Shown piece after piece: positions 27,150-39,153 of a DNA stretch of 49,398 nucleotides. The position numbers were made by a program, and so were the translations under genes. The stretch is from Chloroflexota bacterium (lineage in GTDB: Bacteria > Chloroflexota > Dehalococcoidia > Lucifugimonadales > UBA1127), in contig JAPONS010000047.1 of assembly GCA_026713825.1 (NCBI GenBank), positions 1-49,398 of the forward strand, given 5' to 3'. Below the pieces are notes generated by a model. That model was not told where the DNA came from. It did not search any database and saw only the letters and a list, made by a program, of their open reading frames with translations. How positions within the stretch are numbered: the first letter of the stretch is position 1; each line of letters starts with the position of its first letter.

Positions 27150-27938
27150 CTATCCCCCGGGCGCGAGGTTCTTGAGGATGCTCAGAAAGCCCGGCTTCTT
27201 CTCGACCTGCGGCACATCGAAGTGCAGGCCGCACTCGGTCTTGTCGAAGCCCGCCCACCGGCCGGCCCGCGGGTCCTCACCAATCTGCACCGGGTGCGTG
27301 CAGTGCGTGCAGCCGAGGCTTGGGTAGCCCTGGTCGTTGAGCGGGTTGTAGGGCACGTCGTGCTCAGCGAGGTAGGATCGAGTCTGCGCCTCGTCCCACG
27401 CCGCCAAGGGGTTCACCTTCACCAGCCCGAACTTGGCGTCCCACTCGACGATGGCCACTTCCTTGCGCGTCGAGGACTGGTCGCGGCGGATGCCGGTGAT
27501 CCACGCGTCGAAGTCCTCAAGGGCGCGGGCCGTCGGCTCCACCTTGCGCAGGTCGCAGCACAGATTCGGGTCGCGGGACCAGAGCGCCTCGCCGTACTGC
27601 GCAGCCTGCTCCAGCGGCGTCAGCGCTGACTTGAACGCTTGCGGCTCGATGCCGTACCGCTCGGCGACGAGATCACGGAGCGCGTACGTCTCGGGGAACA
27701 GGAAGTCCGTGTCCGCGTAGAACACAGAGACCGAGCGGTCCAGCTTGAGCGTCATATCGAGCAGCGCCATGCCGCCCACACCGCCGAAGCTGCACGCCAG
27801 TGTGACCTTGCCGGGGAACTGCTTCAGCGCCCACGCCAGTATCTCCTCCGGCGTTGCGCCCTCCAGCCGCCTGTTGGCGTCTTCAAGCTCCTCTGCGGTC
27901 CACTGCCTCTTCTGCGGTTCCAGTGTTGCGTTCTGCAA
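27150..27938 (-). CDS. cysH: Phosphoadenylyl/adenylyl-sulfate reductase (APS reductase type)
   Basis: A 262-residue CysH that reduces activated sulfate to sulfite in cysteine synthesis. It has a PP-loop-type SFGGVGGMALLD near residue 50 and the Fe-S cysteines CC at 127-128 and CTHC at 210-213. This CCx(n)CxxC set marks the [4Fe-4S] APS-reducing type. The catalytic C-terminal Cys is in ECGLH (about 236). I chose TTG 27938, which has GGGAGG five bases upstream. The frame stays open to another TTG at 27974, but that lies inside the U-run of the leader terminator. Its leader encodes a Cys-rich peptide and a terminator. Confidence 0.93.
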   Translation of the reverse strand: MQNATLEPQKRQWTAEELEDANRRLEGATPEEILAWALKQFPGKVTLACSFGGVGGMALLDMTLKLDRSVSVFYADTDFLFPETYALRDLVAERYGIEPQAFKSALTPLEQAAQYGEALWSRDPNLCCDLRKVEPTARALEDFDAWITGIRRDQSSTRKEVAIVEWDAKFGLVKVNPLAAWDEAQTRSYLAEHDVPYNPLNDQGYPSLGCTHCTHPVQIGEDPRAGRWAGFDKTECGLHFDVPQVEKKPGFLSILKNLAPGG

Positions 27939-27978
27939 GGGTTCCTCCCAGTTCTGCTCTGTCTCGGCGTACAAAAAA

Positions 27979-28005
27979 ATCGCCCTGGCTCATCCGCCGG
28001 GCGAT
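27979..28005 (-). terminator. Attenuator terminator in the cysH leader
   Basis: On the minus strand ATCGCCC (28005-27999) pairs with GGGCGAT (27985-27979), extended inside by GGC/GCC with one bulged A, and is followed at once by seven U (27979-27973). It sits about 35 bases before the cysH start codon and downstream of the Cys-rich leader ORF. Its 5' half, CCCGGCGGA (28001-27993), is exactly complementary to a leader segment at 28066-28058, which gives a competing antiterminator. Confidence 0.8.
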
Positions 28006-28036
28006 TGCGTGATCTCTGCGTGCGTTCTGTGTAGTC

Positions 28037-28150
28037 CTAGCCGCTCAGACCCTCCATCCCGGCGGAAGCGGGCATACAACAGCAGCAACACACGCAACTG
28101 AAAGCTGTCGCGCTGTTGACAATCGTTTGTGCCTGCCGGGCCAAGGTCAT
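28037..28150 (-). CDS. Cysteine-rich leader peptide of cysH (candidate attenuator peptide)
   Basis: A 37-codon ORF starting at ATG 28150 (AGG-rich stretch 5-10 bases upstream) and ending with TAG at 28037, wholly inside the cysH leader. Its middle reads SCVCCCCCM: Cys codons at positions 19 and 21-25, six of seven codons (28096-28076). The start lies about 21 bases after the predicted transcription start. The downstream terminator and the complementary segment immediately after the Cys codons (28066-28058) fit ribosome-mediated attenuation, where a shortage of charged tRNA-Cys stalls the ribosome and lets cysH be transcribed. The ORF and pairings are seen; the mechanism is inferred. Confidence 0.75.
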   Translation of the reverse strand: MTLARQAQTIVNSATAFSCVCCCCCMPASAGMEGLSG

Positions 28151-28177
28151 CCGTACCTGCCTATTGATTTGTGACAG

Positions 28178-28206
28178 AGAATACAAGCGCTCTGAAAGCG
28201 TGTCAA
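28178..28206 (-). promoter_or_regulatory. Promoter of the cysH leader transcript
   Basis: On the minus strand TTGACA (28206-28201) and TATTCT (28183-28178) are separated by exactly 17 bases, close to consensus. The start point would be near 28171, giving a leader of about 230 bases before cysH. Confidence 0.85.
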
Positions 28207-28287
28207 CCCCTTGTTCCAAATTGCCTTCACTTGCCCCCATCGCCGGGCGTGCCGATAATGGCTGCGCATTCACGACAGGAGAAGGAA

Positions 28288-28581
28288 ATGCTCGCGGTGG
28301 TCCAGCGTCACGAGCTCGGCGGAGACGAGCATGTCCTGCCGCTCCTTCTTGAGGCCTACCCTATCGACACCGTCGGCCAGCTTCACTACTTCCTCGTGTT
28401 CTGGTGCCAGGCGGGCCGGGAGGCGATGACCGCCGCGATGGGCAAGGACCTCGTCGGCGATATGCTCGCTCTGCTTACCGAGTACGGCATCGACCCGGAC
28501 CGCTGCCGCCTCGAGGAGTCGGACGGCGATGAGGACCCCAGCATCGGTCCGCCGCCCGACTGGTTCAACCGCAGGGACTAG
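28288..28581 (+). CDS. Small conserved-looking cytoplasmic protein, unknown
   Basis: A 97-residue acidic protein starting at ATG 28288, chosen because AGGAGAAGGA lies directly before it; an ATG ten codons upstream lacks such a site. It reads MLAVVQRHELGGDEHVLPLLLEAY and ends with an acidic, proline-rich tail (DGDEDPSIGPPPDWFNRRD). No membrane segment or metal motif is seen (two isolated Cys). The family is not recognised. It lies between the cysH promoter region (divergent) and the convergent JAMM protease gene. Confidence 0.65.
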   Translation: MLAVVQRHELGGDEHVLPLLLEAYPIDTVGQLHYFLVFWCQAGREAMTAAMGKDLVGDMLALLTEYGIDPDRCRLEESDGDEDPSIGPPPDWFNRRD

Positions 28582-37247: not shown

Positions 37248-38858
37248 CTAAAGCGGCTCGTTTGCGCGCTGGCGCCCGAGCAGCCACCACTCCAGGCTAT
37301 CATGCAGCGCCATCCACGACGCCTCGATGATGTTGGCTGAGCAGCCCATCGTGTGCCACCTCGACTCGCCGTCCGTGGATTCCACGAGTACCCGCACCAC
37401 GGCGCCCGTGCCCGTCCCCTGGTCGACGACGCGCACCTTGTAGTCCAGCAGCCGGACAGTTTCCAGTTCCGGGTAGAACGAGAGCAGTCCTTTGCGCGCC
37501 GCCTGGTCCATGGCGTTTACCGGGCCGTTGCCGCTCGCAGCAGTGTGGATGACCTGCCCGTTTACCTGCACCTTCACCGTCGCCTCGCACGCGACGCTGT
37601 CGGCATCGACGTCAGCCGGCCGGCGGTGCTTCTCCACGATGACCATGAAGTCCACCAGGTCAAAGGGCGGCCTGTAGTCCGGCATGGACCGGCGCACGAG
37701 CATCTCAAAGGACGCTTCTGCACCCTCGTACTGGAAGCCCGTGTTCTCCTTTTGCTTGATGGCGGCCAGGATGTCCAGCACAACCCCATTTTCGATGGTC
37801 TCCCGAGAGTCGTAGATGCCCATCTCCACCAGCTTCTGCACGACGTTGGCCCGGCCCGCCAGCTCGGATACGAGGATGTGGTTGGTGTTGCCCACCAGAC
37901 CCGGCGCGACGTGCTGATAGCTCTCTTCCAGCTTGGCCACCGCCGAGGCATGGAGCCCCGCCTTGTGCGTGAATGCGCTGGCCCCCACGTATGGCTGGTA
38001 GGGGTTGGGCGTCCGGTTCACGATCTCACTGACGAAGTGCGACACCTCCATCATGCTCTTGAGCTGCTCCGCCGAGACGCACTCGTAGCCCATCTTGAGC
38101 TGCAGGTCGCCGATGACGGAGATGAGGTTGGCGTTGCCGCACCGCTCGCCGTAGCCGTTCACCGTGCCCTGCACCTGCGTCGCGCCGGCCATCACTGCGG
38201 CCAGCGCGTTGGCCACCGCGACCTCGCCGTCGTTGTGAGGGTGGATGGCAATTTCCGCCTCCGGTACGCTCTCCCTCACCTTGGCGACTATGGCCGAGAC
38301 CTCATGCGGCAACGCCCCTCCGTTGGTGTCGCAGAGGACCACCCTGTCAGCCCCGGCTGCGGCTGCGGCCCGTACGCACTGCAGTGCGTACTCCTCATTG
38401 GCCTTGAAGCCGTCAAAGAAGTGCTCAGCGTCCAGGAGGACGGTCTTGCCGTGCCTCTTGAAGAAGGCCACGCTGTCGGAGATCATCGCCAGGTTCTCTT
38501 CCAGGTTGGTCTCCAGGATGTGCGTGACGTGCATGTCCCACGTCTTGCCGACCATGGTCACGACGGGCGTGTTCGCCTCCATGGCGTGCCGCAGCGTTGG
38601 GTCTGTCTCCGCCGAGCCGTTGGCGTGCCGGGTGCTGCAGAACGCCGCCAGCTTGGCGTGCCGCAGCTCCAGTGACTGCGCCTGCTGGAAGAACTCCGCG
38701 TCTTTCGGGTTGGCCCCCGGCCAGCCGCCCTCGATGTAGTCGATCCCCAGATCGTCCAGCTTCCGGGCAATCTTCAGCTTGTCCTCGACAGAGAGCGACA
38801 TGCCCTCCTGCTGCGTCCCGTCCCGCAGCGTGGTGTCGTAAAGTTCAATCTTTGCCAT
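37248..38858 (-). CDS. cimA: (R)-citramalate synthase
   Basis: A 536-residue enzyme of the isopropylmalate/citramalate synthase family that joins pyruvate and acetyl-CoA, the entry to the threonine-independent isoleucine route. Metal and active-site motifs are LYDTTLRDGTQQEG at the N-terminus and IAIHPHNDGEVAVANA. The last ~130 residues form a LeuA-type regulatory dimer domain, the usual seat of end-product feedback. The length and sequence fit CimA better than LeuA. ATG 38858 was chosen (MAKIELYD); the frame is open 15 codons further. It is controlled by a T-box leader. Confidence 0.88.
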   Translation of the reverse strand: MAKIELYDTTLRDGTQQEGMSLSVEDKLKIARKLDDLGIDYIEGGWPGANPKDAEFFQQAQSLELRHAKLAAFCSTRHANGSAETDPTLRHAMEANTPVVTMVGKTWDMHVTHILETNLEENLAMISDSVAFFKRHGKTVLLDAEHFFDGFKANEEYALQCVRAAAAAGADRVVLCDTNGGALPHEVSAIVAKVRESVPEAEIAIHPHNDGEVAVANALAAVMAGATQVQGTVNGYGERCGNANLISVIGDLQLKMGYECVSAEQLKSMMEVSHFVSEIVNRTPNPYQPYVGASAFTHKAGLHASAVAKLEESYQHVAPGLVGNTNHILVSELAGRANVVQKLVEMGIYDSRETIENGVVLDILAAIKQKENTGFQYEGAEASFEMLVRRSMPDYRPPFDLVDFMVIVEKHRRPADVDADSVACEATVKVQVNGQVIHTAASGNGPVNAMDQAARKGLLSFYPELETVRLLDYKVRVVDQGTGTGAVVRVLVESTDGESRWHTMGCSANIIEASWMALHDSLEWWLLGRQRANEPL

Positions 38859-38899
38859 ACCTGTTCCCCTATTCGGCGCCTGATGCGCCCGTCTGTTGC

Positions 38900-39147
38900 G
38901 CACAACAAAAGACCCGTCCCACCAAGGGACGGGCTCTCACCCGCGGTACCACCCTTATTCCTCCCCTCAGGGAGACGCTTGGAGGGCGCCATCACGCCCC
39001 TTCCCGGTAACGGCGGGATACCGTTGCGCCTACTGCCCGTTTCAACGCAATGCTCGGGAGGGATTTTCGGCGGGCGCTCACCTGTCCGCTCTCACCATAC
39101 CGGACTCGCTGAAGGCTGCATCCCCGGCTACTCGTCTCCGTCAACGC
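38900..39147 (-). promoter_or_regulatory. T-box leader of cimA (candidate isoleucine specifier)
   Basis: The minus strand contains the diagnostic T-box sequence AGGGTGGTACCGCGGG (plus-strand complement at about 38939-38954), which pairs with the uncharged tRNA acceptor end. Upstream are GACGAGTAG (the AGTA element at the base of Stem I) and GAAAATCCCTCCCGAGC, in which ATC (39064-39062) sits at the expected specifier position and would read tRNA-Ile. That agrees with citramalate synthase feeding isoleucine. The T-box motif is certain; the specifier assignment is by pattern. Confidence 0.88.
38907..38934 (-). terminator. T-box terminator hairpin
   Basis: On the minus strand CCCGTCCC and GGGACGGG form an 8-bp stem around TTGGT, followed by TCTTTTGTT. 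It lies directly after the T-box sequence and about 50 bases before cimA. Confidence 0.85.
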
Positions 39148-39153
39148 AAACTT

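Follow-up and report, generated by a model that had tools for sequence, protein, structure and literature searches.

Cysteine-rich leader peptides in front of sulfur genes have been described in mycobacteria. They were predicted there in a comparative study in which no conserved terminator hairpins accompanied them (Seliverstov et al. 2005, PMC1262725). In 2015 attenuation directed by cysteine was still called unprecedented, in a study that also saw mycobacterial polycysteine leaders (PMC4633059), and Canestrari et al. 2020, as cited in PMC13236596, described cysteine-responsive attenuation in mycobacteria as translational. A version acting on transcription has been predicted for uORFC-8-2, which precedes cysS in Rhodobacterales and would combine ribosome-mediated attenuation on Cys codons with an intrinsic terminator (PMC8632094). 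In the literature that we searched, whose coverage was incomplete, attenuation by Cys codons and a terminator was reported neither for sulfate-assimilation genes nor for Chloroflexota, and nothing relevant turned up on a cysH leader peptide or on Cys attenuation in Chloroflexi or Acidobacteria.

Here we analysed a stretch of 49,398 nucleotides from a Chloroflexota genome (the window), for which an initial annotation had proposed a cysteine-sensing attenuator of the trp/his type in front of cysH. Its impression that a transcriptional version would be new has to be narrowed, as uORFC-8-2 had already been predicted, and holds in the literature searched for sulfate-assimilation genes and for Chloroflexota. 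The principle is known; the combination of amino acid, gene set and lineage is absent from the searchable literature.

Results

Parts of the cysH leader

All features of the locus described here lie on the minus strand unless stated otherwise. Profile matches identified the gene at 27938-27150, with a TTG start at 27938, as cysH, encoding an assimilatory adenylyl/phosphoadenylyl-sulfate reductase. Its product matched PF01507 at 1.7e-47 and scored above the cut-offs for NCBIfam NF002537 and TIGR00434 (cysH/phosphoadenylyl-sulfate reductase), and 2goy was among the solved structures related to CysH. A terminator-like hairpin, AAAACCCCGCATGCACATGCGGGGTTTTC, can be read 3' of the gene at 27123-27094, and the cysH of the window is a predicted single-gene unit.

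A promoter scan located a sigma-70-type promoter, TTGACA-17-TATTCT, at 28206-28178, which matches the consensus at 10 of 12 positions and is kept in the same-genus loci L002 and L003. It is followed by a leader peptide ORF of 37 codons (MTLARQAQTIVNSATAFSCVCCCCCMPASAGMEGLSG), running from ATG 28150 to TAG 28037, with a weak AGG 5 nt 5' of its start. The regulatory Cys codons, TGC GTG TGT TGC TGC TGT TGT, occupy 28096-28076, the last of them being 28078-28076. The initial annotation had recognized the leader as Cys-rich; the regulatory run is properly counted as six Cys codons, the CCCCC after CV making five. Among the short ORFs of the window, only 28150-28037 exceeds four Cys in seven codons. 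On the plus strand, a divergent ORF listed as 28171-28581 probably starts at ATG 28258.

Sequence and folds together define an antiterminator strand, GCCCGCTTCCGCCGGG, at 28073-28058. Its 9-nt core, TCCGCCGGG (28066-28058), starts 9 nt past the last Cys codon and is the exact reverse complement of CCCGGCGGA (28001-27993), the 5' arm of an intrinsic terminator. Dinucleotide shuffling of the 70-nt segment produced such an exact complement 18 times in 5000. The terminator itself consists of a hairpin at 28005-27979 (−17.6 kcal/mol, z −4.3 against dinucleotide shuffles) and a run of seven U at 27979-27973; it is detected by RNA folding and was overlooked by a simple terminator scanner because the hairpin has a bulge. 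The cysH Shine-Dalgarno sequence GGGAGGA (27949-27943) lies outside the hairpin. Taken together, the anatomy of the leader is well beyond chance, and on checking the minus strand nearly every coordinate initially assigned to promoter, 37-codon ORF, 9-nt segment, terminator and cysH proved correct.

Conservation in the genus and across the order

The CysH proteins of three same-genus relatives are 92% (G002), 85% (G001) and 64% (G004) identical to that of the window (loci L002-L004), and their leaders keep SCVCCCCCMPASAG or CICCCCCCMPASAG (SCVCCCCC/CICCCCCC). The TCCGCCGGG core is identical in all three, and the terminator arm CCCGGCGGA is retained in G002 and G001, with TCCGGCGGA at this position in G004. 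Within the genus the N-terminal half of the leader diverges while the Cys run stays. One comparative outcome had been named in the initial annotation as telling against it, namely that close relatives keep cysH but lose the Cys run or the complementarity. This did not occur: G001, G002 and G004 keep both, and among distant relatives dozens keep the leader design with unrelated sequence. The CysH of G003 (L014, same genus) is only 43% identical, yet it has its own leader, MFQTFIPCCCCSDN, and terminator; the gene may have been exchanged along with its attenuator.

The gene was present in 87 of 250 genomes of the order, and 87 distinct cysH loci were examined. An upstream short ORF with at least three Cys codons in seven was found at 45 of them, compared with at most 10 for any other two-codon set and 4 for Cys codons on the opposite strand, in counts where related loci are not independent. 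When a strong terminator was required as well, 31 loci remained for Cys versus at most 4 for other codon sets. An intrinsic terminator with a U-run follows 44 of the 45 Cys leaders (that of L200 is a poor hairpin), at a hairpin-to-gene distance of about 40 to 207 nt.

Since these leaders are too divergent to align, pairing was compared between own and swapped arms as an analogue of covariation. The segment after the Cys codons paired with its own terminator 5' arm at a mean of −16.7 kcal/mol, against −13.7 ± 0.37 with swapped arms, a difference reached in none of 5000 permutations; when each of 20 genera was represented by a single locus, z was about −5.4 (range −4.2 to −7.2). The centre of the pairing segment lies 5-25 nt past the last Cys codon in 39 of 44 leaders. 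The comparison of relatives' cysH leaders that had been proposed at the outset is thus borne out for Cys-rich ORFs as well as for pairing.

Leaders with two Cys codons and a terminator were read by eye at about 12 further loci (L021, L024, L025, L160, L162, L163, L174, L191, L201, L204, L206 and L210), and where cysH is internal to an operon, the leader stands at the operon start in about 10 loci. About 20 of the 87 loci, some at contig ends, are without a leader of at least two clustered Cys codons. The spacing and neighbours of the Cys residues vary widely (CVCCCCC, CACACC, CLCSCSC, ECSC, CPC, CLC). A promoter matching at least 9 of 12 positions precedes 26 of 52 leaders in the order (2.2 expected). 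Outside the window's genus, usually only about 10 nt or less separate the −10 box from the leader start, and such mRNAs may therefore be leaderless.

Two loci, L197 and L199, retain a terminator 90-230 nt before cysH and have a leader without Cys codons; L204, whose leader region resembles theirs, has NCFC. Natural loss of the sensor at L197 and L199 is possible. At L216 (G011:C9), two Cys leaders about 195 nt apart, VHCACTCCTNSVGQGLCA and MCSCMCCCTCTPDWGGTE, precede one operon at 1218 and 1023 nt ahead of the cysH match, each with a terminator-like hairpin, in the manner of tandem attenuators.

Computed folds of the leader RNA

Folds were computed on the RNA free ahead of the ribosome, with a footprint assumed to reach about 11-12 nt beyond the A codon. 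With the A site on Cys codon 1, 2 or 3, the antiterminator was favoured at about −42 kcal/mol. In this fold GCCC-GCT-TCCGCCGGG (28073-28058) forms 4+3+9 bp with both terminator arms, its partners being CCCGGCGGA, AGC and GGGC; the 9-nt complement first noted is exact, but it understated the pairing. With the A site on Cys 4 the antiterminator was still favoured (−35.0), and once the ribosome had reached Cys 5-6, or the stop codon, the terminator prevailed. The proposed comparison of the two folding energies therefore gives antiterminator at Cys 1-4 and terminator at Cys 5-6 and stop.

The footprint of a ribosome halted at the stop codon does not plainly extend over 28066-28058. In the fold of the RNA behind that ribosome, CCCGGC (28140-28135) can hold GCCGGG (28063-28058), making CCCGGCAGGC (28140-28131) a candidate protector, or segment 1. 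Its CCGGC is kept in L002 and L003, and other genera are arranged otherwise: in the window's genus upstream codons can pair with segment 2, and elsewhere its partner lies between or downstream. No segment 1 conserved across genera was found among the order leaders compared. The leader ORF, terminator and antiterminator strand of the trp/his scheme initially recognized stand; the segment 1 of the classical scheme, which would overlap the regulatory codons, is not kept across the genera compared.

For the whole untranslated leader, the thermodynamic minimum also contains the antiterminator helix, a point against the attenuator reading. In the RNA transcribed before the terminator, the antiterminator segment is sequestered in the computed fold. 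Default termination would therefore need the order of co-transcriptional folding or a translating ribosome.

Leaders of NirA-like genes

Further Cys leaders in the window's genome were sought by a TGY x4 pattern and by gene family; most of the TGY x4 matches lay inside longer frames and were dismissed. Contig C48 carries the Cys leader MVTVLVNNCCCRLHTG (scanned as VTVLVNNCCCRLHTG; L279:992-1091) and contig C99 the Cys leader MNIAVTTCACCRRP (L411:1365-1480), both with a terminator and each directly 5' of a gene of the NirA/sulfite-reductase family that scores below the NCBIfam cut-offs. Their pairing segments are weaker than at cysH (−13.1 and −10.3, respectively). A leader before the counterpart of the C48 gene is retained in G002, where it has three Cys codons, and in G001 and G004, where it has two. 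About 20 NIR_SIR loci of the order have Cys leaders, and a Cys leader with a strong terminator was found on 23 of 100 NIR_SIR strands scanned, versus at most 5 for other codon sets. None of 30 cysS loci scanned in the order has a Cys leader directly before the gene, and no convincing one directly precedes the order's ATP-sulfurylase genes; leaders of other units lie near some of these cysS and ATP-sulfurylase loci. The NirA-like genes behind Cys leaders are probably sulfite reductase genes. The best reading of these patterns is a small cysteine regulon in which each operon has a sensor of its own; it is predicted to take in NirA-like genes and, in most members of the order that have cysH, this gene or the operon around it.

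Occurrence beyond the order

A Cys leader with a terminator also precedes cysH or its operon in L036 (Acidobacteria gp22), L097 (Anaerolineae), L084 and L107 (other Chloroflexi) and L106 (Eremiobacterota). In L096 (Blastocatellia), a Cys leader beginning MYCICCSALQ and a terminator lie about 1050 nt before the cysH match, ahead of a gene resembling uroporphyrin C-methyltransferase, which would supply siroheme for sulfite reductase. Complementarity was strong in L096 (1/200 shuffles), L107 (5/200) and L036 (8/200), fair in L097 (14/200), and not significant at L084 and L106 (200 shuffles). No convincing leader was found at about 88 loci from elsewhere in the phylum (28 of L310-L338 and sixty in L339-L398); a few scanner matches in L310-L398 were rejected as weak stems in coding DNA. 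Many genome-contig matches (Paenibacillus, Nitrospira) were without a leader.

Discussion

The Cys specificity, the terminators, the own-arm pairing and the folds support the trp/his-type attenuation first proposed, and we consider it highly likely that the locus is a ribosome-mediated, cysteine-responsive transcription attenuator of cysH. From its anatomy, conservation, complementarity and computed energetics we infer how transcription start, translation, stalling and termination would follow one another in the cell. Transcription would begin near 28170, and the 37-codon leader would be translated. When Cys-tRNA is plentiful, the ribosome would pass the Cys codons, and 28073-28058 would then be covered or held by upstream leader RNA, so that the hairpin at 28005-27979 forms and RNA polymerase halts at the U-run, short of cysH. 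If Cys-tRNA is scarce, the ribosome would stall on the Cys codons and leave 28073-28058 free to pair with the arms of the terminator hairpin; polymerase would continue into cysH, and the read-through would raise the supply of sulfide and cysteine. Very probably, then, these bacteria switch on sulfur assimilation when their ribosomes lack cysteine.

The leader might instead act on translation: a stalled ribosome would expose a cysH ribosome-binding site otherwise buried in RNA structure, and the hairpin would not serve as a terminator. The Cys leaders of M. smegmatis, the closest ones studied by experiment, are reported to act on translation (Canestrari et al. 2020, as cited in PMC13236596), and many leaders of the order start no more than about 10 nt from the −10 box, like the leaderless mycobacterial ones. 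Here, however, the hairpin ends in a U-run and leaves the Shine-Dalgarno sequence outside, U-runs follow the hairpin in all but one of the leaders, and the distance from hairpin to gene varies several-fold, which makes this reading quite unlikely. We attach very little probability to the view that the nascent peptide senses metal, Fe-S or redox state, not Cys-tRNA. Clustered Cys residues could coordinate metal; CysH and sulfite reductase are themselves metalloenzymes, and both families use Fe-S or siroheme cofactors. Redox was also raised in the 2015 mycobacterial study (PMC4633059). Against such sensing, the spacing and neighbours of the Cys residues vary freely among leaders, and the Cys clusters adjoin the RNA switch; the genes they precede also belong to sulfate assimilation.

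That chance alone placed a spurious ORF between an ordinary promoter and a terminator without regulatory role is hardly credible: short ORFs do abound in high-GC DNA, and shuffled sequence did on occasion yield the 9-nt complement, but Cys specificity and own-arm complementarity recur over 20 genera, and the comparative tests contradict chance. Ribosome-mediated transcription attenuation thus remains our preferred reading of the cysH leader.

With less assurance, we think it reasonably likely that the APS/PAPS and sulfite reductase genes of Dehalococcoidia-type Chloroflexota form an order-wide, ribosome-only cysteine regulon, in which each would have its own Cys-codon transcription attenuator on mostly nearly leaderless mRNAs, and that this arrangement recurs in Acidobacteriota, Eremiobacterota and Anaerolineae as a terminator-based counterpart of the mycobacterial translational Cys system. 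It gives a concrete, testable rule by which a large and mostly uncultured order could monitor cysteine with no protein regulator devoted to it. Annotation would benefit too: a NirA-like gene preceded by a Cys leader suggests a sulfite, not a nitrite, reductase. The divergent leaders also illustrate how antiterminator and terminator can co-vary freely when only codon identity and pairing are constrained.

Among known systems, T-box leaders likewise respond to aminoacylation through a terminator/antiterminator pair, but they read tRNA directly, without a leader ORF. Up to E=10, Rfam covariance models matched no T-box, other leader or riboswitch at 27938-28206. Elsewhere in the window, a T-box leader (RF00230, 108.6 bits, above cut-off) occupies 38922-39153 on the minus strand, just 5' of an ORF resembling citramalate/isopropylmalate synthase (37248-38903, minus strand); a tRNA-reading leader for one pathway and putative ribosome-read leaders for cysteine thus occur in the same organism. 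The mycobacterial polycysteine short ORFs share with the present leaders their place before sulfur-assimilation operons, their often leaderless start and their occurrence several times per genome; where the mycobacterial type is defined by a structure sequestering the ribosome-binding site and by the lack of an intrinsic terminator, the leaders described here have a strong terminator with a U-run and an antiterminator strand. In uORFC-8-2 two tandem Cys codons precede a cysteinyl-tRNA synthetase gene in alphaproteobacteria, whereas the targets here are cysH and NirA-like genes. With the trp, his, leu and phe attenuators of enterobacteria, the cysH leader shares an ORF with a run of regulatory codons, control of the matching biosynthetic gene and, as read from sequence and computed folds, a mutually exclusive antiterminator and intrinsic terminator. 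It differs from them in its Cys codons, its sulfate-assimilation genes and its lineage, in an antiterminator strand that lies inside the leader ORF and starts only a few nt from the Cys codons, and in showing no segment 1 conserved across the genera compared. Ribosome-mediated transcription attenuation would thereby extend to cysteine and to sulfate assimilation.
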